This document shows positions 3,060 to 58,298 of a stretch of DNA of 58,298 nt, piece by piece. The translations under genes were made by a program, and so were the position numbers. The stretch lies in the NCBI RefSeq assembly GCF_003054705.1, contig NZ_QAYX01000010.1, positions 1-58,298 of the forward strand, given 5' to 3'. The stretch comes from Opitutus sp. ER46. Lineage in GTDB: Bacteria > Verrucomicrobiota > Verrucomicrobiia > Opitutales > Opitutaceae. Below the pieces are notes generated by a model. That model saw only the letters and a list, made by a program, of their open reading frames with translations. It ran no database searches and had not been told where the DNA came from. How positions within the stretch are numbered: the first letter of the stretch is position 1; each line of letters opens with the position of its first letter.

Positions 3060-3400
3060 GCCCGAGGGGGGGCATCCGGCCGGCGGCGTCCGGCCGGTCT
3101 TTCTCTTACTCGTACTCTTTCTCTTTCTTCCCGAACGGATGGCTCGGAGGGGACGGATGGAACGGAGGGGACGGATGGCGCCGCGCGGGAGCGCGGCGCG
3201 AGAACGAGAACGGCCTTCGGAGTGGAGAGTGAGCCTTCGGAGTGAAAGTGAGAGTGAAGGTGAAAGTGGGGAGCCTTCGGAGTGAGAGAGGGAGTGGGGA
3301 GACGCTGATCCCGGGGGGGCGACCCTCAATCCCTCAATCCCTCAATCCCTCAATCCCTCAATCCCTTGAGAGTAAGAGAAAGAGGAAGAGTAAGAGAAAG
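3060..3400. repeat. Simple-sequence modules (TCTTTCTC, GTGAAAGT, CCCTCAATC)
   Basis: The 5' flank of the response-regulator operon is built from short-period arrays. There is a CTCTTTCTC / TCTTACTC tract at about 3102-3133 and a GGACGGATGG duplicate at about 3149-3178. A GTGAAAGTGAGAGT array preceded by CCTTCGGA lies at about 3232-3275. Five CCCTCAATC-type 9-mers lie at about 3323-3366, and a complementary GAGTAAGAGAAAGAG tract at about 3367-3402. The last tract is roughly the reverse complement of the first, so the block is bounded by inverted arrays. The GTGAAA and CCCTCAATC modules recur in the same order near 48199-48290. Confidence 0.8.
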
Positions 3401-3423
3401 AGTCCGGCGGACGCCGGAAGAGG

Positions 3424-3475
3424 AACGGTCCCGGCTCGTGCCCAACACCCCTGCTTGGCACGAACCGGGACCGGT
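3424..3475. repeat. Imperfect 23-bp inverted repeat
   Basis: The left arm (about 3424-3446) reads CGGTCCCGGCTCGTGCC and the right arm (about 3453-3475) reads GGCACGAACCGGGACCG. They are complementary apart from a few mismatches, around an A/C-rich loop. No T-tract follows. It lies between the simple-sequence block and the end of the degP-like gene, so it could be a transcription boundary or a small mobile hairpin. Confidence 0.65.
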
Positions 3476-3572
3476 TAACTAGCTACAACAACACAACAAC
3501 TACCAACCTTGAAGAACGCTGAGGGGGGACGGCGGCTGGGCGCGGCCCCCCGGGGAAACTTTCGATCGTGGC

Positions 3573-5096
<1,524 letters not shown>

Positions 5097-5251
5097 GGCG
5101 TTTTTCTCGGTTTTGCTGGACCGAAGATGCCACAGCCCCCTGTCGGGCCCCTTGCGCGACCATTACAGAATGGAAAGGTTCGGGCGGCGCCCGAGGGTGG
5201 GCGGCCGCGCCGAACAATCCGGCAAATGCGAGCGAGGCGGGCGGGCGGCGC

Positions 5252-9187
<3,936 letters not shown>

Positions 9188-14460: not shown

Positions 14461-14596
14461 GGTGGGGCGCGGATTGGCCGGGAAAACCGGGCGACGGCGC
14501 AAGCCAAATAGGCACGGCCGCACGGTGGCGAACGCCTGCGCCGATGTTTCCACCAAAAGCTTTGCCCTTTGGACCTGATTTTGCGGCCATCCGCGC

Positions 14597-15610
14597 ATGG
14601 CCAAGAAACCAGGCGGCGACGAAGACGCCCCGAAGAAGATCGCCAGCTATACGGTGAAACTCGACGACGCGCAGATGGAGACCCTGCGCGGGATCCTGGA
14701 GCAGCGCGGCTGGACGCCCTTCGAGGTGGCGTACACCCGCTTCGCGTTCAAGGCCGACCACCTCAAGGTCAACGTCTCGGCCTACACGAGCGGCAAGGTC
14801 GTGATTGCCGGCAAGGGCACGGAGGACTTCGTGCGGGACGTGCTCGAGCCCGAGGTGACGGGCGCGGCCAAGCTCGGCTACGACGACGTGCTGCATCCGG
14901 ACTGGTTCGAGTCGCATGCCGGCATGGATGAAAGCGGCAAGGGCGACTTTTTCGGGCCGGTGGTGGCGGCGACGGTGATCGCGGACCGCGTGGCAATCGA
15001 AGGTTGGATCAAGGCCGGGGTGAAGGACTCGAAGCGGATCGCGGACATGCAGATCATCAAGCTCGACCAGCTTATCCGGGACACGCCCGGGGTGGCGGTC
15101 CGCACCTGCTTCTGCGGGATGCCGAAGTACAACGAGCTGATGGGGCGGCCCGGGGCGAACCTGAACCGGCTGCTGGCGTGGCAGCACGCGACGGCGCTCG
15201 AGCAGGCGCTCGCCACCAAGCGGGTGCCGTGGGGCCTGCTGGACCAGTTTACGGAGCAGCCGTTGGTGCAGCGCGAGCTGGCCCGCAAGAACGTGGCGGG
15301 TTTCGACCTGCGGATGCGGACGAAGGCGGAAGAGGACCCGGTCGTGGCGGCGGCCTCGATCGTGGCGCGAGCCGAGTTTCAGCGGCAGATGGTGATGCTC
15401 TCGAAGCAGTTTGGCGCGCGGCTGCAGAAAGGCGCGGGCCCGTTGGTGAAGGAGCAGGCAATGCAGATCATCCAGCAATTCGGCGCGCGGGCGCTGGGCA
15501 ACTTTGCCAAGCTGCACTTCCGGACGGCGTACGAAGTGGTTTCGGCGGCGGGCAAACTCGACGAGTTGCCGCTGAAGGAGCCGGCGGCGCGGATGGAGTG
15601 GGGCAGCTAG
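14597..15610 (+). CDS. rnhC: Ribonuclease HIII
   Basis: A 337-residue nuclease that removes RNA from RNA-DNA hybrids. The N-terminal TBP-like substrate-binding domain (about residues 15-90: YTVKLDDAQMETLRGILEQ) separates HIII from HII. The catalytic RNase H fold begins GMDESGKGDFFGPVV (Asp111 and Glu112), with VKDSKRI and ADDDPVVAA-type positions later (AEEDPVVAAASIVARAEF). Length is typical. It is divergent from mutY. A separate RNase HII gene lies only 1.5 kb downstream. Confidence 0.95.
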   Translation: MAKKPGGDEDAPKKIASYTVKLDDAQMETLRGILEQRGWTPFEVAYTRFAFKADHLKVNVSAYTSGKVVIAGKGTEDFVRDVLEPEVTGAAKLGYDDVLHPDWFESHAGMDESGKGDFFGPVVAATVIADRVAIEGWIKAGVKDSKRIADMQIIKLDQLIRDTPGVAVRTCFCGMPKYNELMGRPGANLNRLLAWQHATALEQALATKRVPWGLLDQFTEQPLVQRELARKNVAGFDLRMRTKAEEDPVVAAASIVARAEFQRQMVMLSKQFGARLQKGAGPLVKEQAMQIIQQFGARALGNFAKLHFRTAYEVVSAAGKLDELPLKEPAARMEWGS

Positions 15611-15637
15611 CCGCCTCCGAAATTCGCCCGCAGGCTG

Positions 15638-16165
15638 CTAGGCGCGCGGCGTGTTGCCGGGGGCGGAGGTGGCCGCGCGCGGCGCGGCGTGTTTCCGGGC
15701 CTCGTCGACCGCGAGCTCCTCGATGTAGCGGGTAAAATCCTCGTCCTCGCCCTCGACCAATTCGGGGAGCGCGGCGCGAAATTCGGGGCGGGCGACCCAC
15801 TCGCGCATGTAGTCCTCCCATGACTTCCACAAGCGGCGGGTCTGCTTGTTCATGTTCTCTTCGTACACGAGCAGGTAGGCGCGTTCGAAGAGCGAGATGA
15901 GGATGCCGAAGATCGCGAGCCGCCGTTCCTGCTGCTCGGAGGTGAGTTCCTGGGCGCGACCGTCGCGGCGGAGGAGCTGCAAGTCGGCGTTGTCGAGGAC
16001 GAGCTTGAGGAACTCGCGGTATTCGTCGGACAGGCGCTGGTAGATCTCCTCGTCCTCGCTCTGCCGTTCTTTGCGCTGCTCCATCAGGAACACGATGATC
16101 GCGAACGGCAGACCGACCACGGTCACGATGTAGCTCAGGAGCTCCCAGGTTTCGAGCGACAGCAT
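15638..16165 (-). CDS. Membrane-anchored hypothetical protein
   Basis: A 175-residue protein I cannot assign to a named family. One membrane segment lies at about residues 9-28 (LSYIVTVVGLPFAIIVFLM), followed by a long charged, mostly helical cytoplasmic part with EEIYQRLSDEYREFLKLVL and ERAYLLVYEENMNKQTRRLW. The architecture (short outside N-terminus, single helix, helical body) recurs in proteins annotated as hypothetical in many bacteria. It is convergent with rnhC, 27 bp from its stop codon, and its 5' end abuts the tandem repeat block. Confidence 0.75.
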   Translation of the reverse strand: MLSLETWELLSYIVTVVGLPFAIIVFLMEQRKERQSEDEEIYQRLSDEYREFLKLVLDNADLQLLRRDGRAQELTSEQQERRLAIFGILISLFERAYLLVYEENMNKQTRRLWKSWEDYMREWVARPEFRAALPELVEGEDEDFTRYIEELAVDEARKHAAPRAATSAPGNTPRA

Positions 16166-16223
16166 GACCTCTGGTTACGCGAGGGGCTTGAAAGGTGCAA
16201 GTTACGTGTCGGGTCGGGTGTTG

Positions 16224-16600
16224 GCGCGCGCTGAACCGCGCGCGACGTTGGCAGGTTGCAGGTTCGAAGGTTGCAGGTTCCGAACCACGGAAGAGGAGGT
16301 GGACCGCGAAAGACGCGAAAGGGCGCGAAAACCTGGGGTGGACGGGGGCGCGCGCTGAACCGCGCGCGCGACGTTGGCAGGTTGCAGGTTCGAAGGTTGC
16401 TGGTTCCTGAACCACGGAAGAGGAGGTGGACCGCGAAAGGCGCGAAAGGGCGCGAAAACCTGGGGTGGACGGGGGCGCGCGCTGAATCGCGCGCGCGACG
16501 TTGGCAGGTTGCAGGTTCGAAGGTTGCAGGTTCCGCACCACGGAGGATCGGGGCCGAGGACTGCGGGTTTTCGCGGCTCGTTTCGCGTAATTCGCGGTAA
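16224..16600. repeat. Three tandem ~125-bp repeat units
   Basis: Units begin near 16224, 16348 and 16475, so the periods are 124 and 127 bp. Each contains GCGCGCTGAACCGCGCGC, then GACGTTGGCAGGTTGCAGG, TTCGAAGGTTGC, an ACCACGGA word, and (in the first two) an ACCGCGAAAG-CGCGAAAGGG-CGCGAAAACC module ending CTGGGGTGGACGGGG. The third unit ends in a TTTTCGCGGCTCG variant near 16565-16600. Short frames on both strands here are translations of the repeat. Confidence 0.88.
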
Positions 16601-16784
16601 GCTCTGGTTAGGGGATCGGGAGGTTGAGAGTGAGTAACGGCGAAGGGACGAAGGGACGGACGCCAAGGCAGTTTTGAACAGGAGATAAGGGAGGGAACAG
16701 AGGGTCGGTTTCAGCGCGGGTTGGCGGAATCTTTCTCGTTCTCTCGAGGGATTGGGATGCGGGGTGGGCGACGCACGGAGGAGG

Positions 16785-16960
16785 GGAACCGCGAAAGACG
16801 CGAAGGGGCGCGAAAATCTGATGTGGACGGGGCGGGCGCTGAGCCGCGCGTGCGACGTTGGCAGGTTGCAGGTTTGAAGGTTGCCGGTTCCGAATCACGG
16901 AAGGTCGGGGGCGAGAACCGCGGGTCTTCGCGGCTCGGTTCGCGTATTTCGCGGTGCACT
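16785..16960. repeat. Diverged fourth copy of the 16224 repeat family
   Basis: ACCGCGAAAGACGCGAAGGG at about 16789 is followed by GGGCGCTGAGCCGCGCGTGC, GACGTTGGCAGGTTGCAGG and CGGGTCTTCGCGGCTCGG. The order of modules is shifted relative to the tandem block. It lies just upstream of the RNase HII gene. The 16600-16785 spacer shows no gene. Confidence 0.7.
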
Positions 16961-17076
16961 CCTCTTCTGTCCTCGGCGCGGTTTGTGGTCCAGAAGCTGC
17001 CGAGTTGCAGGAGGCGGGCGGGAGCCGGAAGGCGCGGGGCTTGCCAGCCATGGAGGGGGACTCTGTGATCCCCGGG

Positions 17077-17955
17077 ATGAAGCGCCGCCAGCTGCGCGGG
17101 TTCGACCTGAAGCAAATCGAAGGAGTAAACAGCCTCATCGGCGTCGATGAGGTGGGGCGGGGCGCGTTTGCCGGGCCGGTGGTGGCGGCGGCGGTGTTGG
17201 TCAATCGCGAGTTCCTGGAAAGCCGGTGGGCGCTGACGAAGAGCGGCCGGGTGAACGACTCGAAACTCCTGACGCCCGAGCAGCGGGAGGAGCTGTGGGG
17301 GGAGTTTGAGAAGCTGACGGCGGCCGGGCTGATCCATGCGAACCACGGGTCGGCGTCGGTCGAGGAGATCGCGCAATTGAACATCCTGGGCGCCACGAAG
17401 CTGGCGATGCGGCGGGCGCTGGAGGGCATTTACCCGGCGACGGCGTTTCAGCCCGAGCGCACCGAGCCGGACCTGTTTTCCAGCCTGGAAGAGCGCGAGG
17501 CGTACACGCCCACGGTCTCGGCGCGGGTCCTGATCGACGGGTTGCCGTTGCGGAGCTTCCCGTACCCGCACCGGGCGTTCGTGCACGGTGATGCGCGCTC
17601 GCTCTGCATCGCCATGGCGTCGGTCATCGCGAAGGTGACGCGCGACCGGCTGATGGTGGCGATGGAGGCGAAGCACCCGGGCTACGGCTTTGCGCAGCAC
17701 AAGGGGTACGGCACCGAGGAACATCGCGACGCGGTGCTGCGGCTCGGGCGGTGCGTGGAGCACCGCGAGGCGTTCCTGCGGAAGCTCCTGGCGGTCCGGA
17801 TCGACCCGGCCCAGATGAACCTTTTCGAGAAGGGTGGCGCGGCCAAACTGGCGCCGGTCGACACTGACCCGGAGGTCGAGGGCGAGGGGGAGTCCGCCGG
17901 TGGCGGGACGGAGCCGGCGGCGAGCGAAACGAAGCCGGTGGGCGCCGACACCTGA
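17077..17955 (+). CDS. rnhB: Ribonuclease HII
   Basis: About 292 residues; it nicks ribonucleotides in DNA and RNA-DNA hybrids. GVDEVGRGAFAGPVVAAAV carries the first acidic pair (Asp24, Glu25). VNDSKLLTPEQREEL follows, and the C-terminal half contains VHGDARSLCIAMASVIAKVTR and HPGYGFAQHKGYGT. It is longer than E. coli RNase HII because of an insertion around residues 120-160 (FQPERTEPDLFSSLEEREAY) and an acidic, disordered-looking tail. The open frame extends into repeat DNA upstream. ATG 17077 (MKRRQLRGFD) and ATG 17050 are both possible. Confidence 0.93.
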   Translation: MKRRQLRGFDLKQIEGVNSLIGVDEVGRGAFAGPVVAAAVLVNREFLESRWALTKSGRVNDSKLLTPEQREELWGEFEKLTAAGLIHANHGSASVEEIAQLNILGATKLAMRRALEGIYPATAFQPERTEPDLFSSLEEREAYTPTVSARVLIDGLPLRSFPYPHRAFVHGDARSLCIAMASVIAKVTRDRLMVAMEAKHPGYGFAQHKGYGTEEHRDAVLRLGRCVEHREAFLRKLLAVRIDPAQMNLFEKGGAAKLAPVDTDPEVEGEGESAGGGTEPAASETKPVGADT

Positions 17956-18028
17956 GCGGCGCGGGACGCGCCCGGCCGGATACGGGTTTCAGCTTCCCGT
18001 TGTCGCGGCTTCGGCTTTGCTCGTGGCC

Positions 18029-19213
18029 ATGGCCGGCAAGAAGACGACTTCGCTAGATCGGGTGCTCGGGCGGCTGGATACGCTCGACACGGTTAATCTC
18101 ACGAACCTCGTGCAGCGGCTGGCGCGGGAGCGGGCGCTGTTCGAGGAGATCTTCAACACGCTGCAGGAAGGCATCCTCGTCATTCGCGACGACGGCGCGA
18201 TCGAGTACGCCAACGCCTCGGCCTATGCGCTGATCGGGCTCGGGTCGGACGAACTCACCGGCGAAACGCTGTGGCGGCTGGTGCCGGGACTGCGGACCTC
18301 GCTCGGGGCGACGCTGGACGACACCCGCGCGGTGGCGCCGGTGGCGACGCGGGAATTCGAGCTGACCTACCCGGAGCCGCGGACGGTGCGGATGTACATG
18401 GTGCCGTTCACGCAGCCCACGCGCGGGGCGGCGCGGCGGTTCGTGATCATCCTGTCGGACATCACCAAGGATAAGGAAACGACGGAGGCGCGCATCGAGA
18501 ACGAGCGCACGTCGTCGATCCTGCTGCTGGCGGCGGGCGTCGCGCACGAGTTGGGCAATCCGCTGAACTCGCTCACGATTCACCTCCAGTTGATCGAGCG
18601 GAAACTGAAGCGCCTGGGCGCGGGCAAGGAAGTCGACGCCGTCGCGGATTCCGTACGCGTGTGCCGCAACGAGGTCTCCCGGCTCGATGGGATCATTACC
18701 AACTTTCTCGAGGCGATCCGGCCGCGTCCGCCGGACCTCGCCGACACCGACCTCAACGACGTCCTCGACGAAGTCCTGCGTTTCCAGCACCGCGAAATGG
18801 AGGACCGGGGCATTGCGGTGGAGGCGGAGACGTCGGAGGCGCTGCCGCACGTGATGGCGGACCGCAACCAGCTGAAGCAGGTGTTCTTCAACCTCACCAA
18901 GAACGCCATGGAGGCGATGCGGCCTGGCGGGAAGCTGCGGATCCGCTCCCGGGCGGACGACGACTACGTGTATCTCATGGTTGGAGACACCGGCGCGGGC
19001 ATCAAACAGGAGGATCTCGTGCGCCTGTTCCAGCCTTACTACACCACGAAGGCGGGCGGCAGCGGGTTGGGCCTGATGATCGCGCAGCGCATCATGCGCG
19101 AGCACGGCGGCCACATTGGCATCGAGAGCAAGGAAGGCGTGGGCACGATCGTAACCCTGCAGTTCCCGCGCAAGGACCGCCGCGTGCGCATGCTCCAGAG
19201 CGGCGGGCGCTAA
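18029..19213 (+). CDS. NtrB-like PAS sensor histidine kinase
   Basis: A 394-residue kinase without membrane segments. A short N-terminal helix precedes a PAS domain (about residues 38-150; EIFNTLQEGILVIRDDGAIEYANASA). The H-box is VAHELGNPLNSL with His173. The ATPase domain has the N-box NLTKNAMEAM, then GDTGAGIKQEDL and GSGLGLMIAQRI. The order PAS, HELGNPL H-box, GLGL is that of NtrB-class kinases paired with sigma-54 activators. The likely partner is the NtrC-like gene 2.5 kb downstream, an inference from type and proximity. ATG 18029 is preferred because the longer frame overlaps the rnhB 3' end. Confidence 0.9.
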   Translation: MAGKKTTSLDRVLGRLDTLDTVNLTNLVQRLARERALFEEIFNTLQEGILVIRDDGAIEYANASAYALIGLGSDELTGETLWRLVPGLRTSLGATLDDTRAVAPVATREFELTYPEPRTVRMYMVPFTQPTRGAARRFVIILSDITKDKETTEARIENERTSSILLLAAGVAHELGNPLNSLTIHLQLIERKLKRLGAGKEVDAVADSVRVCRNEVSRLDGIITNFLEAIRPRPPDLADTDLNDVLDEVLRFQHREMEDRGIAVEAETSEALPHVMADRNQLKQVFFNLTKNAMEAMRPGGKLRIRSRADDDYVYLMVGDTGAGIKQEDLVRLFQPYYTTKAGGSGLGLMIAQRIMREHGGHIGIESKEGVGTIVTLQFPRKDRRVRMLQSGGR

Positions 19214-40761: not shown

Positions 40762-41237
40762 CTCCGCGCGTGGCCGCCGCAGCGCGGGAACAAGCGCGGA
40801 GGATGGGGCAATACGTGCCGGTTTTCGGCCGGAGGACGCACGCCGAACGAACAGTGAGGCTCGGTATGCTGACATGCTGGTAAGGCGAACTGGGATCGTT
40901 GCCTGGTGGGGTAGACTGGTGCAGCAGGACGGGGCGAACGCGACAGTGTGCGGGAAATCGCTCCCAATTGGGAGGACCGAAACTACCGGAATTCCAGTAG
41001 TCCGCGGGCCCCCGACCCGCGGACGAGAGCGAGTCTCTGACGCCGTGCCTTGGGCTTTCGCGCTGGAGCTGTAGCATCAGGTCAACCGCCCGCCCGTTGG
41101 GGATCGAGTCGCCGGTACCCGCGTCGCGGGTGTAATCCAACCCCGCGCCGACGAGGCGCTTCGGCTCCCGTCGCTGGTGGAAACGAGGTGAAAAGAAGCG
41201 CGAGGAGAAAAAGGCAATTAACGCCGAAAAAAAGGTG
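40762..41237. other. Intergenic region upstream of tRNA-Ala, no gene seen
   Basis: About 480 bp between the partner gene and the tRNA. Short frames are on both strands but without domain character. A GGTACCCGCGTCGCGGGTG hairpin-like word lies near 41110. A-rich tracts (GCCGAAAAAAAGG) precede the tRNA promoter. Confidence 0.5.
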
Positions 41238-41267
41238 TTTACTTGCGGGCGTTGATTCCGCAATTAC
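41238..41267 (+). promoter_or_regulatory. Possible promoter of tRNA-Ala
   Basis: TTTACT (41238-41243) and AATTAC (41262-41267) are separated by 18 bp, ending 13 bp before the tRNA. The match to consensus is weak. Confidence 0.35.
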
Positions 41268-41280
41268 GTCACCTCCTCAC

Positions 41281-41356
41281 GGGCCAGTAGCTCAGTTGAT
41301 AGAGCGCATCGTTCGCAACGATGAGGTCGTCGGTTTGATCCCGATCTGGTCCACCA
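41281..41356 (+). tRNA. tRNA-Ala (anticodon CGC)
   Basis: A 76-nt cloverleaf with acceptor GGGCCAG / CTGGTCC. Position 3-70 is G-U, the alanine identity pair. Anticodon arm CATCG, TTCGCAA, CGATG gives CGC. CCA is encoded at 41354-41356. Its last 10 nt are the start of the 57-bp direct repeat. Confidence 0.94.
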
Positions 41357-41403
41357 TCCTTCGCTCAACCGCCAGCGGTTGAGGCTACGGATGGCAGGCC
41401 ATC
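41347..41403 (+). repeat. Direct repeat copy 1 (includes tRNA-Ala 3' end)
   Basis: 57 bp identical to 41806-41862. It holds two hairpins: CTCAACCG CCAG CGGTTGAG and GATGGC AG GCCATC. Confidence 0.92.
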
Positions 41404-41497
41404 TTTCAGAAGACGGACGCAGTATCGACTGCCCCGGCGAAGGATGCCCTCCGTAGGGTTGCCGAAGGAGGGCCAGACGTGCGACAACGGCAAAGTC

Positions 41498-41743
41498 GTG
41501 CACTACGTTTACATTCTCGAATCAGTAAGGGAGCCGTCCGAGAAATACGTGGGCCTGACCGACGATCTCCGTGCCCGGCTAAAGGACCACAACGCCGGTC
41601 GCTCGCCACACACCGCCAAGCATCGACCGTGGAATCTCGTATGCTACCACGCCTTCGCAGATGAGCGCCGGGCGGTCGCATTCGAGAGATATCTGAAGAC
41701 CGGTTCCGGACACGAGTTTCGTCGGCGGCATTTCGGTGTTTAG
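41498..41743 (+). CDS. GIY-YIG domain protein
   Basis: An 81-residue minimal GIY-YIG nuclease-like domain of the UPF0213/YhbQ-like class. It begins VHYVYILES and has EKYVGLTDDLRARLKDHNAG, where GIY and YIG become VYI and YVG, followed by the conserved Arg and the HNAG motif. The catalytic Glu is in AFERYLKTGSG. It lies between the two 57-bp repeats. GTG 41498 gives the family start; ATG 41444 is 18 codons upstream through a hairpin (CCCTCCGTAGG / CCGAAGGAGGG). Molecular role unknown; related nucleases cut branched or structured DNA. Confidence 0.88.
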   Translation: MHYVYILESVREPSEKYVGLTDDLRARLKDHNAGRSPHTAKHRPWNLVCYHAFADERRAVAFERYLKTGSGHEFRRRHFGV

Positions 41744-41805
41744 CACCTCGCCGGATTGTTCGCACGATTTGTTTAGCGGGTCTCGGTTTGTGCTAAACGG
41801 ACTTG

Positions 41806-41862
41806 TGGTCCACCATCCTTCGCTCAACCGCCAGCGGTTGAGGCTACGGATGGCAGGCCATC
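41806..41862 (+). repeat. Direct repeat copy 2 of the tRNA tail
   Basis: Identical to 41347-41403. Preceded by GTTTAGC (41771-41777) and its complement GCTAAAC (41792-41798), a 7-bp inverted repeat. Confidence 0.92.
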
Positions 41863-41932
41863 CTGGAATGCAGGATGAGCGCGCGGGGAAGGACGCGAAG
41901 GATGCGAATCTCCAGGTTCGTCAGGCCTGAGG

Positions 41933-42598
41933 CTATTCGAAGATCCTGAATTCGGCTTGGCCGTTCACCTTGCCAACCACGACTCCGCGCCGAACGACTC
42001 CGACCCAGGTCTCATTCCACTTCCGGTTGTAGATGTAGATTCTGCCTTCCTTGATCTCGCCTTCCAGTCTGACGACGCCCGCATTGGGATTCTTACTGTT
42101 GCTCTGCTCCAGGTAAAACCAGGGGCCTTCCGTGCGGGTGACGAAAAGCGTGCCGCCCTGTCCTCCCAGCGCGTTGGTTTCCCAACGCAGGGTCCTGCCG
42201 GTAATGAATGGTGCGGGCCCTGCCTCACGGTGGGCCGCTGGGAGTATCTGAAAGTTGGAGTGGGCGGTACCCGCCGAAAGGGTGCCAACGATCTTGTCGT
42301 GGAGCAGCTCGCCCTCCCACACCTCTTTCCACTGACCGACGTTCAAGAGGATGACCTTTCTTCCATTGTCGATTACGGCTCCAAACATCCTGACGGCGCC
42401 CACAGACCGATTGTGTTCATTGGTCTGCTCAATCTCGAAGAGCGCTCCGTCAACGGCCGTGACTTTCATCAACCCGCTCTGGCCACCTTCGATGGTCCAA
42501 CGCAAGACCTCCCCCCTCCTGATCATGGGAATACCCTGGGCCGATGCGGATGCGATCAGCGCGATGACGAGGATGAGGGAGCCGAGGATTTTTTTCAT
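41933..42598 (-). CDS. Secreted protein with two similar domains
   Basis: A 221-residue protein with a signal peptide (MKKILGSLILVIALIASASA). The mature part has two related ~90-residue beta-rich halves. Each has a RGEVLRWTIEGG / GRTLRWETNALGG start, an FEIEQTNEHNRSVGAV / YLEQSNSKNPNAGVV core, and a KVILLNVGQWKEVWEG / RIYIYNRKWNETWVG end, so it arose by internal duplication. No enzymatic residues stand out. I do not recognise the family. It is monocistronic with no visible operon partner. Confidence 0.78.
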   Translation of the reverse strand: MKKILGSLILVIALIASASAQGIPMIRRGEVLRWTIEGGQSGLMKVTAVDGALFEIEQTNEHNRSVGAVRMFGAVIDNGRKVILLNVGQWKEVWEGELLHDKIVGTLSAGTAHSNFQILPAAHREAGPAPFITGRTLRWETNALGGQGGTLFVTRTEGPWFYLEQSNSKNPNAGVVRLEGEIKEGRIYIYNRKWNETWVGVVRRGVVVGKVNGQAEFRIFE

Positions 42599-42696
42599 AG
42601 GGTACCAATCAGAGGCGAAGGTGAGGTCGGGCGCGTCGGATAACGCGCCAGAGCTATCACACTGTCGGCATGAGTAGATACGTTGTCACCCCATTC

Positions 42697-43212
42697 TTAC
42701 CAACAAGGAGATTTGATTCCCGCTGACCGCCGCGGTTGTCCGAGTTCGGCCCGCGGCATTTCGGCGCCTGGGATCCGTCGCCCCTCTGAGGGCATTTGAA
42801 GCCTAATGAGACGAAGGGGGCTTCGGTGTTGATCGGGCGTGTTCCGCGCGCGGGCCGTGCTCTGAACGCGGTCGCCAAATCGGCTCGCGAACGCCGTCCC
42901 CAGGGATCGATCGATCTCGACCGCGAGTGTCCGCTCCTTCGCCAGAAAAATGGTCAAAACGATCACACGGGCGCCTTCCTTGCGCGCTTGGATCGTTCCC
43001 GATGAATTCGCGAAATACGCGAAGGTCTCAAGGTCGCTGGCCAACAGAATCTGATCCTTCATGTCGTGACCTTTTGCCACCGTTCGAAGGGTGGCCGAAA
43101 TAGACTGCCGATCCGCGTCTGTGGCGTCTGCGATCACGTATCCTCGCGGTAGGCCCCAAATACCGGCGTGCGCAACGGCGGCGAGAAATAGGAAAACGCC
43201 GACATAGCGCAT
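42697..43212 (-). CDS. Small secreted protein, possibly degraded at the C-terminus
   Basis: A 171-residue frame with a signal peptide (MRYVGVFLFLAAVAHAG). Residues 18-115 look coding (GYVIADATDADRQSISATLR, DMKDQILLASDLETFAYFAN, VIVLTIFLAKERTLAVEIDR). After about residue 120 the sequence turns Arg/Pro-rich with no fold-like pattern, suggesting that the end is frame-shifted or read-through. Function unknown. Confidence 0.5.
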   Translation of the reverse strand: MRYVGVFLFLAAVAHAGIWGLPRGYVIADATDADRQSISATLRTVAKGHDMKDQILLASDLETFAYFANSSGTIQARKEGARVIVLTIFLAKERTLAVEIDRSLGTAFASRFGDRVQSTARARNTPDQHRSPLRLIRLQMPSEGRRIPGAEMPRAELGQPRRSAGIKSPCW

Positions 43213-51914: not shown

Positions 51915-51989
<75 letters not shown>

Positions 51990-52027
51990 GCCTTCCTAGA
52001 GGGAAAACTCGCTTGGGGCATTACCCC

Positions 52028-53694: not shown

Positions 53695-56600
53695 ATGGAT
53701 ATCCCGCCTATCGAGTCGCCCGCCAATCAACAAGCCCACGACAAGTTTCGCGGGTATGGATATCAATGCTGGCTCACCGTCGATGCTTGGCTTGAGCTGA
53801 AGCCGAACGATCTACTTTTTGCCGAACGGGCAGAGGATTTCGTAACATTTTCGGATCAGCAGGCGCAGGTAGCCCAAGTCAAGGCCCTCACGGGCGAAAT
53901 CACCTTGCGCAGTGAAAGCGTCGCCGAAGCTATCAACCATCTGTGGGCATTTCAAAAACTGAGTCCCGCGACCGATATCCGGTTCAGTTTTCTGACGACG
54001 GCCGGCGTGACGACCGAAAAAGGCGACCCATTCGATGGCGTAACAGGGCTTTCGCTGTGGAAGACCGCGGCCGCGACGGGCAACCTTGCCAAGGTCGAGG
54101 CGTTGCGAGCGTTTCTAGCAGCCGACGAATCCGTCGGCAAAAATCTGGATCAGGATGTCCGGGACTATTTGAAATCGGCGACGCCAGCCGACTTCCTGGC
54201 AAAAATCGTTCGTGCGCTCGTCTGGGAAACAGGCCGCGATGACGATTCCGGCGTTCGCGCCACGGTCGAGAGCCGGCTCGCGGTCCTCGCCGAGCGGCAT
54301 TTTGGCGCCACGCCGGCACACGGGCGCAATCTTGCCGCCACCTTGTTCGCCGACGTCTATGCGGTCGCCTCAGCCAAGGAAAAAGTTGCCCTGACGGCTG
54401 CGGGACTGCTCGCGGCCACCCAGCGCCATCTCGTGCCGGACGTGCTTACGGCCTTGTCAGCGCGTCGGCAGGAATTACTCGGCGGAGTCTTCGCCGGCGC
54501 GACCGGTGTCACGCCAAACTGGTTTTTCTCCGACACAGTACCGCCGATTGAACCGGGCGCGGACTTTTCCCGGCGCGAGTCGGCTGTGGCCGATCTGCAA
54601 AAGGCCGTCGGCGTCGCGGCGTTCATCGTGATCGTAGGCTCGTCCGGCATGGGCAAGAGCACTCTGGCGCAACTTTTTGCCGCAGCTACTGGCGGCAACT
54701 GGCTTCTTTTCAGGGCGAGCGAGGAATCGTTCCGCACATTTCGCGGGGTCCAGGAATGCATCTCACTCATCGCTCAACAGCCGCCGCCCTTCGGTTTGCT
54801 GATCGATGACTTGCCGTGGGAGCGCTTGGACGCCGGAGCGATGAATCTCATGCGCGGCCTCGCGCTTATGGCCCGCCGACGCGGCGCGCGTCTCGTCTTT
54901 ACCAATCAGCGGCCGCCCAGTGCGGTGGAACTGGCCTCTGCCGGACTGAGCGAGGCCGTCGTGGTGAAGGCGCCACCGCTCATCGACGCCGAGATCGTGG
55001 AAATCACTACTCGGATGGGCTGCGCCGATCAAAAGATCGCCGAACGCTGGGCTCCGATGGTAGCCGCGCAAACTTCCGGGCACCCCCAGCTCGTCCATGC
55101 GCAACTGATCGCATTGCGCGAGAGGGGTTGGCCTGATGTTTCCGTGGATGAATTCTCCGCCGCGAGTGCGGCCGTGCAGGAGGCGCGAGACAGGAAACAG
55201 ATCCTGCTCGCAAACCTGGGGGTTGACGAAACTGAACTGCTCACGCGACTCAGCGTATTGTTTGGACCTTTCCGTCGCGATCACGCTCTGGCACTCGGTC
55301 AGCAACTCGAACGCATCGTCAAGGCGACCGCCGCTTTCGAACGACTGCACGGGCCTTGGATCGAACGGGCGTCGTCGGAGCGTTTTCAGCTCTCGCCCTT
55401 GATCGGCCCCTCCTTGCTCGTGGGGCTCACGCCCGAGCGCACGAAAGCCATGCGGATTGCCGCGGTCGAGGCGGTTGTCTCCTGCAAGCCGTTTGAGGCC
55501 ATCGATGCCGTCCACGCGATGCTTAATGTCGTCCTCAGTCAGGCCACGGACTATGCGACTCCTCTCCTCATGCAATTCATGTGGGTGCCCAAAGAGCACT
55601 CCGCCGGGCTACACGCCCTTCTCTCGTGGGCTCCGTTCATGTTCACGGACGGCCAGCCGGTGTTTCCGGGCTGGCCGGCGGTCGATTTTCTTTTCCGGGT
55701 GCTACAGTTTGAAGTCGCGGCCGATACGCTGCCCGCCCAATGCGAACATTTCCTCGGGCTCTGCGATCAAATCATCGCGGCGGAAAGGGATTCCGAATCA
55801 GCGGATTCGTTGCGCGCAATTCTTGCGTTCAGCCTGGTGAAGGCTGAGGGCGCCCCCGTCCCGTTCCGCCGGCTCCTTTGGTGCATCGACGTGCTGCGGC
55901 ACGTGACCGCTCAGATGAACAAGGAAGGCGCAAACCTCCCGAGTAAATTGCTGCCTGACATTTTCCATGCCGAAAGCGCCGAGGATGAAGCGGAGGTTTT
56001 CGTTGTGCTCGGGATTTTCATGCGGGCAGGCAGGCTCTCAGAGCTGAGGCAATTGCTCGAAACTTTGGAGCACGCGAGCGACGAAGATCGCAGCCGCTAC
56101 TTAAGGGCGCTCTGCCGCTTCAAGCCGTCCGTGCTGATGGCGTTCGACCGAGTGTGGCTCGCCGAGGAGAAAAAACCGATTCGGTCGTGGGATGCGACCC
56201 TCGCATTGTTTCACGATTTCCTCAATGCCGCGGTGCAATGGGGGAACGAGCTGTTTGCCGCCTGCGCGGCACGTGGCATTTCGGTAATCGAGAATGAATA
56301 CCTGAACCGCCCCGAAGAGGCGGCGCACGTGCTTGATCGCTTGGCGCCCGCCGATCCCGAAGTGGCTGCGATCATCTCGGAACAACGCGGCAAAATCGCG
56401 TTCCTGGCGAAGCGCTATCCCGAGGCTCAGAGACACTTCGAGGCATCACTATCCAATAATCCGTGGCGCGGGCTCACCCTGAGCGGTGTTGTTAACTGCT
56501 ATCAAAACGCCGGCACGGCGGCCGGTCATGCCGGCGACTGGGCGGCATCAGCGGCGCATTTTTTGGCCGGGAGCGAACTCGCCGCCGAGGACGAAGATGA

Positions 56601-57759
56601 GGTTCGCGCGTTCGCAATGCTCGCGGACTCTGCTTTTGCTCTGTGGCAAACGGGACAGCATGATACAGCTGTCGAGCGGCTGGGGTTGGCGCTCGAACGC
56701 GCACCCCAATTGCCCGATCCTCGTTCGAGCCTTGGCGCACTGCGCGCTCTGAAGGCTTTCGGTCACATGCTGAATCAACTGGCTTGGGCTGGTCGGGGTC
56801 GCGCGGCCGATGTAGACCATGCACCCTTAGTCGCAGGATTTTGCAGCGATCCGCGGGCCGACGAGCGGTTGCGCGAACTTCCGCCGCCCAACGTCGCTTA
56901 TTTTTGGATGCTCTACTTGTGGCTCGAACTCGACCACTTGCCCGCGCTTCCGCGCTACGCGAACAAATGGGCCGAATTGAGGCAGGTCCGGCTGCCATCG
57001 CTCCAATATTTCTTATTGGAGCTTGAAACCCGGCGCCGCCTCAAAGCCGCCGACTACGCAACCTTGCTACCCTTGGCGCTGGAGACTGCGGCGACCCTGG
57101 CGGCGCTTCATGCCTTGAAGATCGAGGACCCCAGTCAGTTCGTCACCCCTGTCGCCGATTTGCCTCCGCAGCCGTATGAGCTGCTGGCACCGTTTCCCAT
57201 TCCCATTCTACTGCTCAGCACTCTGACATTTGCCGCCTTGTCGTCTCACCCAGTTGGGCCGGTTCTTGAGGCCTGGAGGGCCGCAGCTGCTGGCACGCCC
57301 CTGCAAAACGAATTAACGAACCTGCTTGATGGACTCGCGGGCGCCTTTGCAGCGCCTATCGACGACTCCACGGCGGCCGCGGCCTCGGAAGCAGATGACT
57401 GGGTGCGTTGGGCGCACGCGCTGCGCGTCGTGACGGAACTTCCGGTGGCTCCCAATCCGCTGCTCGTCGTCACAATCTTCTTCTCGTTTTCGCGCTGGCC
57501 GGTGCGGTCGTTCGGCTGGTTCGTGGACACCATGGCCCTCCTTGATCGCAAGATTTCCGCGCAGTGGGTGCGGGCTTGCGAGCAGCGTTTCGCATTCAGC
57601 AACCCAACTCTCTTTGTGCCGGAAATAAGGGGCCTGGCCACCGATCCAGAAGGCACGGTTGCACATATCGCCAAAATCGCGGTCGCCGCCGTTCCTTCGC
57701 TTCATGTGAACGTGGGCAAAGGTTTGCTCGACGCGGTGCGTCAGGTCGCAACCTCCTGA
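53695..57759 (+). CDS. Nuclease-STAND NTPase, candidate anti-phage protein
   Basis: A 1354-residue protein with three parts. (1) Residues about 10-130 look like a Cap4/DUF4297 PD-(D/E)xK nuclease: FRGYGYQ at 18-24, Glu44/Asp48 in AERAEDFVTF, and Gln61-Val-Lys63 in AQVKALTGE. (2) A P-loop ATPase: Walker A GSSGMGKST (315-323) and Walker B FGLLIDDLP with Asp371/Asp372, the STAND arrangement. (3) A long alpha-helical repeat tail (about 560-1354), TPR-like (for example RYPEAQRHFEASLSNNPWRG). Known STAND defence proteins (Avs) recognise phage proteins through such tails and activate an N-terminal nuclease. Placement on an integrase island supports this; the target is unknown. ATG 53695 is chosen because the upstream frame lacks domain character. 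Confidence 0.8.
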   Translation: MDIPPIESPANQQAHDKFRGYGYQCWLTVDAWLELKPNDLLFAERAEDFVTFSDQQAQVAQVKALTGEITLRSESVAEAINHLWAFQKLSPATDIRFSFLTTAGVTTEKGDPFDGVTGLSLWKTAAATGNLAKVEALRAFLAADESVGKNLDQDVRDYLKSATPADFLAKIVRALVWETGRDDDSGVRATVESRLAVLAERHFGATPAHGRNLAATLFADVYAVASAKEKVALTAAGLLAATQRHLVPDVLTALSARRQELLGGVFAGATGVTPNWFFSDTVPPIEPGADFSRRESAVADLQKAVGVAAFIVIVGSSGMGKSTLAQLFAAATGGNWLLFRASEESFRTFRGVQECISLIAQQPPPFGLLIDDLPWERLDAGAMNLMRGLALMARRRGARLVFTNQRPPSAVELASAGLSEAVVVKAPPLIDAEIVEITTRMGCADQKIAERWAPMVAAQTSGHPQLVHAQLIALRERGWPDVSVDEFSAASAAVQEARDRKQILLANLGVDETELLTRLSVLFGPFRRDHALALGQQLERIVKATAAFERLHGPWIERASSERFQLSPLIGPSLLVGLTPERTKAMRIAAVEAVVSCKPFEAIDAVHAMLNVVLSQATDYATPLLMQFMWVPKEHSAGLHALLSWAPFMFTDGQPVFPGWPAVDFLFRVLQFEVAADTLPAQCEHFLGLCDQIIAAERDSESADSLRAILAFSLVKAEGAPVPFRRLLWCIDVLRHVTAQMNKEGANLPSKLLPDIFHAESAEDEAEVFVVLGIFMRAGRLSELRQLLETLEHASDEDRSRYLRALCRFKPSVLMAFDRVWLAEEKKPIRSWDATLALFHDFLNAAVQWGNELFAACAARGISVIENEYLNRPEEAAHVLDRLAPADPEVAAIISEQRGKIAFLAKRYPEAQRHFEASLSNNPWRGLTLSGVVNCYQNAGTAAGHAGDWAASAAHFLAGSELAAEDEDEVRAFAMLADSAFALWQTGQHDTAVERLGLALERAPQLPDPRSSLGALRALKAFGHMLNQLAWAGRGRAADVDHAPLVAGFCSDPRADERLRELPPPNVAYFWMLYLWLELDHLPALPRYANKWAELRQVRLPSLQYFLLELETRRRLKAADYATLLPLALETAATLAALHALKIEDPSQFVTPVADLPPQPYELLAPFPIPILLLSTLTFAALSSHPVGPVLEAWRAAAAGTPLQNELTNLLDGLAGAFAAPIDDSTAAAASEADDWVRWAHALRVVTELPVAPNPLLVVTIFFSFSRWPVRSFGWFVDTMALLDRKISAQWVRACEQRFAFSNPTLFVPEIRGLATDPEGTVAHIAKIAVAAVPSLHVNVGKGLLDAVRQVATS

Positions 57760-57874: not shown

Positions 57875-58275
57875 TCAGTTGGCACGCGGCAACGCCGGCT
57901 GCATTTCCGGAGGGAGCCTCGCAATGCATCGTTTTGTGATTCGGTTGAGGCTCTCTTGGATGAACGGGAGCCTGTTCTCGATTTTGCAGAGAGAGTCCAG
58001 GTGTTGCCCGAAATGAAATTTCTGGGTTCGAGGTGAGGAGTCATCTTCCTTCGCGTGCCTTATCGCACGGAGGAGTGTCGTCGACCCAGCCCGCACACGT
58101 TCGACCATTTTTTCGAATTCTCCGATGCTGAGGAAGAACACGTTCTCCAGAGGGAGCGGCAGCCTCGTCCCGAATTCCCGCGTTAAGTTTGAAGTAAGGC
58201 TCTCACCGAGCGTATTCGCGAGGTGGCTGCTGCATCGTAAGCGTTCAATTTGGACGGCTGATGTATATCCAACAT
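57875..58275 (-). pseudogene. Frameshifted ORF of unknown function at the element edge
   Basis: On the minus strand, a start at 58275 reads MLDIHQPSKLNAYDAAATSR for 30 codons to a TAA. In another frame, downstream coding continues as TREFGTRLPLPLENVFFLSIG, EFEKMVERVRAG, RAIRHAKEDDSS and QKFHFGQHLDSLCK to a stop at 57875 (the in-frame initiator there is only a GTG at 58141). The two segments read as one protein with a -1 shift near 58200. It may be a decayed gene, a sequencing or assembly error, or less likely a programmed shift. No family recognised. Its start lies inside a palindrome, as in autoregulated antitoxin genes. Confidence 0.5.
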
Positions 58276-58293
58276 GCTATATATCAATAGCAT
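58274..58293. promoter_or_regulatory. Palindrome overlapping the start of the terminal ORF
   Basis: ATGCTAT (58274-58280) and ATAGCAT (58287-58293) form a 7-bp inverted repeat with a 6-nt A+T spacer. The minus-strand start codon is 58275-58273, inside it. This resembles an autoregulatory operator, as at the toxin-antitoxin pair near 29150. Confidence 0.6.
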
Positions 58294-58298
58294 ATATT

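Follow-up and report, generated by a model that had tools for sequence, protein, structure and literature searches.

What is the large protein of a small island inserted at a tRNA gene likely to do for its bacterium? The locus in question lies in Opitutus sp. ER46, at the end of the 58,298-nucleotide stretch analysed here (the window), which is the whole of contig C10 (NZ_QAYX01000010.1) and stops at position 58298 within an insertion sequence (IS). A preliminary description had read one of its genes as a nuclease-STAND defence gene of the Avs type, and our analysis supports this reading. The gene is intact and encodes a 1354-residue protein composed of a Cap4-like nuclease, a STAND nucleoside triphosphatase (NTPase) and a helical tail. 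We consider it probable that this protein acts alone as an Avs-like (NLR-like) immune sensor, borne by a small tRNA-integrating island. The reading frame runs without interruption from 53350 to a stop codon at 57759, and ATG 53695 was taken as the start because the close relatives P0003 and P0002 begin there or a few residues off.

The N-terminal domain combines a predicted fold core with the D and (D/E/Q)xK residues that characterise the PD-(D/E)xK nucleases of the Cap4/DUF4297 group. Every motif named in the preliminary description was present in the translation (FRGYGYQ, Asp48, Gln61-Val-Lys63, the P-loop GSSGMGKST and the DD of Walker B), and predicted models, on which the fold assignments rest, likewise gave a PD-(D/E)xK-type core within residues 10-140, STAND fold matches and a helical tail. 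Profile searches were less uniform: the LmuA profile of PADLOC matched residues 11-171 (3.2e-9), better than any other profile did for the nuclease domain, but Pfam gave nothing above its curated cut-off anywhere in the protein, with nSTAND1, nSTAND3 and NACHT matching only at E 0.02-0.08. Judged from sequence, the nuclease-domain match and the conservation of its residues exceed chance. The central part has the features that define STAND NTPases: a P-loop, a Walker B motif, a GxP motif, for which we take GHP (residues 462-464), and a winged helix that follows the NTPase.

To follow these residues across relatives, predicted proteins were searched three times, each search scoring just the 8000 candidates with most words in common. 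The first gave 32 matches including the query, from which alignment A1 was made (the query plus 30, with P0032 omitted); the second, which used A1, added partial matches only; and the third, with a Sphingopyxis relative as query, gave 92 proteins. Pooling the first and third searches yielded 119 proteins, of which 108 were aligned after removal of 11 below 1200 residues. Partial matches (P0032, P0033-P0046 and P0135-P0137) were excluded from the relatives, and P0129 was retained among the 108 though its BLAST alignment to its query spans just 19%. The triad D48/Q61/K63 reads DQK in 105 of the 108 aligned proteins, DQR in two and a gap in one (the full-length members without DQK being P0105, P0117 and P0132), while K321, D371 and W555 are invariant (108/108). 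Mean pairwise identity, calculated for 378 pairs of 28 A1 sequences (P0002, P0018 and P0031 omitted), was 0.41 for residues 10-140, 0.39 for 426-575, 0.31 for 289-425, 0.28 for 851-1060, 0.26 for 141-288 and 0.18-0.23 for the remaining tail.

The long helical-repeat tail anticipated in the preliminary description was borne out by an all-helical model (residues 561-1354; predicted local distance difference test, pLDDT, 89.2; predicted template modelling score, pTM, 0.82) with TPR-like repeats. The tail varies more than the effector, yet it aligns over its full length in the multiple alignment. In each of the regions 1-575, 576-1110 and 1111-1354, 101 of the 108 sequences covered no fewer than 80% of the alignment columns belonging to the 1354-residue protein, and 106 covered at least 70%. 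The tail can be aligned among relatives from Verrucomicrobiota, Rhodothermales and Pseudomonadota, and several of its positions are kept (E868, A876, S1051 and W1194 in 104/108, D978 in 102/108, G1048 in 98/108). When the protein was compared pairwise with the tail piece of a distant Rhizobium copy, the match was confined to 783-988, so that the far tail is linked through the multiple alignment and not through pairs. We infer from these alignments that the tail is a single conserved sensing or switching scaffold rather than a swapped module. More tentatively, and with doubts that we consider to prevail, the family may be a distinct Avs-like type whose tail recognises a single conserved product of invaders, one to which none of the characterised Avs proteins responds, with E868, A876, D978, G1048, S1051 and W1194 marking a binding or switch surface.

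Table 1 Features of the STAND gene, its island and the adjoining insertion sequence (positions refer to the window unless L025, on contig C17, is given).
Feature	Position	Strand	Basis
tRNA-Met (CAT), attachment gene	51915..51989	+	ARAGORN, Rfam
attL, tRNA 3' end plus 6 bases, 30 bp	51966..51995	+	exact attR copy at L025 2074-2103
Divergent tyrosine recombinase (integrase), 398 aa	52087..53283	+	NCBIfam XerC 7.8e-8, XerD 2.2e-6, about residues 160-299
Cap4-like nuclease/STAND NTPase/helical tail protein, 1354 aa	53695..57759	+	intact gene
PD-(D/E)xK nuclease domain, residues 10-140	53722..54114	+	predicted alpha-beta-beta-beta-alpha-beta core
Presumed catalytic Asp48	53836..53838	+	D 107/108, gap 1
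Presumed catalytic Gln61-x-Lys63	53875..53883	+	Q 107/108, K 105/108
Helical connector, residues 141-288	54115..54558	+	predicted model; pLDDT under 50 at 249-286
STAND nucleotide-binding domain, residues 289-425	54559..54969	+	predicted model and fold matches
Walker A GSSGMGKST, residues 315-323 (K321)	54637..54663	+	K321 in 108/108
Walker B LLIDD (D371, D372)	54796..54810	+	D371 108/108, D372 101/108
Helical plus winged-helix region, residues 426-575	54970..55419	+	spanned by CED-4/Apaf-1 match
GHP, residues 462-464	55078..55086	+	H463 104/108, P464 102/108
All-helical tail, residues 576-1354, presumed sensor	55420..57756	+	predicted model
TPR-like repeats, residues about 892-1010	56368..56724	+	Pfam TPR_12 1.6e-4, TPR_14 0.002, below curated cut-offs
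88-aa open frame between STAND gene and IS	57875..58141	-	only frame of at least 80 aa clear of the gene before the IS
8-bp target duplication GCTGCATC, left copy	58229..58236		right copy L025 63-70
IS66-like element, left end, cut by contig end	58237..58298		62 bases
GIY-YIG protein, island cargo, related to intron/homing endonucleases	L025 327-926	-	PADLOC HEase 2.8e-12; TIGR01453 1.9e-7, below cut-off
265-aa cargo protein	L025 1058-1855	-	unmatched in Pfam, PADLOC and NCBIfam at limits used

Among the closest known systems is Avs3 (AVAST type 3). According to PMC12931631, Avs (AVAST) proteins are defined by a tripartite arrangement of effector, STAND and repeat tail, and the 1354-residue protein has this layout in one chain. 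Recognition of a phage protein and tetramer formation, which also mark the Avs group, are putative for it. Its STAND core resembles that of Avs3 (PDB 8dgc), which Foldseek ranked first for residues 1-650 (E 1e-11), and the N-terminal nuclease of Avs3 is also of the Cap4 type, as stated in PMC11291478. However, the 8dgc chain has 2028 residues, identity is 14%, and kinship of the tails is only putative. None of the families that PADLOC listed at E 0.01 (10 for 31 members, 8 for 20 members), and none of 25 of 71 NCBIfam families, bears an Avs name, with no control Avs protein scanned in either set.

In HerA-DUF4297 (PDB 9c1m, 8xav), the nuclease is a protein of its own that pairs with a HerA hexamer, whereas in our protein it shares one chain with a STAND NTPase. 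No HerA-like gene was found beside the 1354-residue protein among the window neighbours or the C17 cargo. Lamassu, whose LmuA supplied the profile match, has an SMC-like LmuB partner. No lmuB (SMC-like) gene lies beside our gene, which has the integrase and tRNA upstream and, downstream, the 88-aa frame and the C17 cargo, made up of the GIY-YIG protein and a second protein without a match. The tails of Apaf-1, CED-4 and plant NLRs consist of WD40 or LRR repeats; the present protein differs in its TPR-like tail and in having a nuclease as effector. Within the partial literature covered, no title or abstract opening that we found names this nuclease-STAND-tail architecture, and we do not claim that it is absent from print.

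By analogy with these relatives, activation would occur by assembly and would lead to cleavage of double-stranded DNA (dsDNA) in an anti-phage role. PMC12198126 and PMC12931631 report that Avs proteins sense phage proteins and that the STAND domain of Avs3 joins its nuclease domains, and PMC11291478 reports that in DUF4297-HerA a dimerised nuclease domain of the same type degrades dsDNA. The same nuclease-pairing logic fits the 1354-residue protein. In the resting protein, the STAND core would prevent the Cap4-type nuclease domains at the N-terminus from meeting. Activation would begin when the helical tail is bound by a product of the invader, for which a phage protein is the likeliest candidate; the NTPase core would then bind or use ATP and the protein would oligomerise. 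This would pair the nuclease domains as dimers that cut dsDNA, stopping the infection and probably killing the cell.

The tRNA that the preliminary description had placed nearby, with an integrase between, proved to be a tRNA-Met. As in integrative elements that target tRNAs, the integrase stands beside the tRNA gene and the tRNA 3' end is repeated at the far end (on C17); no tRNA was found when one was looked for at the attR copy. The catalytic part of the integrase is divergent, with no Pfam integrase match. Based on the att repeats and the IS pairing of C10 with C17, the island would run from 51966 through the IS to position 2103 of C17, about 8.3 kb without the IS. The C10/C17 join is suggested by the target duplication of the IS and is not read through: C17 starts with the opposite IS end followed by GCTGCATC, matching the 8 bases before the IS end in the window. 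The same flank pairing, each with its own 8 bases, was found for C7/C6 (GGAAAAAC) and C9/C18 (ACTCGGCG); the pair C24/C23 is less clean, and for the IS flanks of C20, C21 and C25 a partner was sought among the contigs and none found. The same 62-base IS end recurs in C7, C9, C20 and C24, and an IS66 TnpA-like frame adjoins the C21 copy (3.2e-5, below cut-off). The 88-aa frame may be what is left of a disrupted gene. GC content in 2-kb steps was 0.594-0.625 from 52001 on versus 0.712-0.736 just upstream, and was near 0.60 also outside the island, at 41001-43000.

A tRNA-Met-like sequence occurs in all 29 genomes searched, our own included. An orthologous empty site was sought by tblastn (1e-4) with 10 queries (four from the right flank, two from the left flank, the integrase, the STAND protein and two cargo proteins); none matched in the eight same-genus neighbourhoods, while all 10 matched the own loci as positive control. 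Because the flanks differ in these eight neighbourhoods, no orthologue demonstrates an empty site. As side observations, the integrase has one weak relative in its own genome, on C23 (37% over residues 167-254), and the assembly is interrupted by an IS66-like element whose target duplications are 8 bp long (window 58229-58298, L025 1-70).

Relatives are scattered. Two of the 27 genomes searched in the genus matched, our own and G401 (29%; treated as one record with locus L003), as did 8 of 384 drawn from the class, with our own and three others matching over nearly full length. The remaining four were not counted as relatives, namely G213, which matched in two pieces with a stop, and G206, G258 and G302, whose matches lie at the P-loop and span no more than about 100 residues. 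Genome contigs provided four loci and PLSDB 14 plasmid records from alpha- and betaproteobacteria plus Deinococcus, one of which covers at least 80% of the query. No relative was found in 113 pattern stretches of viral contigs or in phage records. Where relatives carried names in the searches, they were called hypothetical, TPR repeat or ATPase proteins.

Our neighbour survey covered the loci of relatives only. In G074 (L041) the gene is flanked by two Gabija-like GajA/GajB pairs (3097-7819 and 14530-18081) and a Fic protein, in Rhizobium etli a CBASS cyclase lies about 4 kb away, and the Deinococcus gene is preceded by TIR, HEPN and Fic genes. Other neighbours include HEPN, HipA and an AAA/helicase pair in Caulobacter, GASH in R. 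leguminosarum, PDC-S22 within about 0.3 kb after the gene in L003 (1.6e-128) and an RT-Protease_XI match about 6 kb off in L004 (6.5e-17). Sphingopyxis has nothing but a VapC pair nearby, the Bradyrhizobium and Paraburkholderia neighbourhoods are ambiguous, that of Ciceribacter is unannotated, and the scanned neighbours in L006 and L038 had no PADLOC match. Relatives of 751-770 residues and a two-frame Rhizobium leguminosarum copy had prompted us to consider a two-gene (split sensor) form, which we dropped. The two overlapping frames of the R. leguminosarum plasmid copy (L065 5977-10016) align nearly gap-free to one continuous relative (83-87% identity) and thus look frame-broken, so a two-component form is not claimed; the other 751-770-residue relatives may be alike.

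The location of relatives on 14 plasmid records and of our gene on an integrative island makes competition between elements plausible, in which case the tail would sense a protein of conjugation or replication, and incoming plasmids or other mobile elements, instead of phages, would be destroyed by the nuclease. Since Avs3 and HerA-DUF4297, the closest characterised structural relatives, act on phages, we regard such a target as unlikely. It is a little less likely still that the protein is a stress-triggered, toxin-like suicide module with a host-derived trigger, retained for island stability. A nuclease that looks active by sequence (DQK) and sits on a mobile island would suit such a module; however, an NTPase switch together with a conserved tail of 779 residues would be a high cost for simple addiction, and no antitoxin was recognised among the adjoining frames, of which those on C17 were scanned and the 88-aa frame was not.

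A transcription regulator similar to MalT would share the STAND core, and we consider it very improbable here: the N-terminus is nuclease-like with its catalytic residues kept, and no helix-turn-helix model was among the 15 Pfam families listed. An Avs-like sensor of invaders is our preferred reading.

A sizeable family of nuclease-STAND sensors spans distant bacterial groups. If it works as proposed here, it would enlarge the range of NLR-like receptors in bacteria, and the conservation of its tail would offer a route to the invader product that is recognised.
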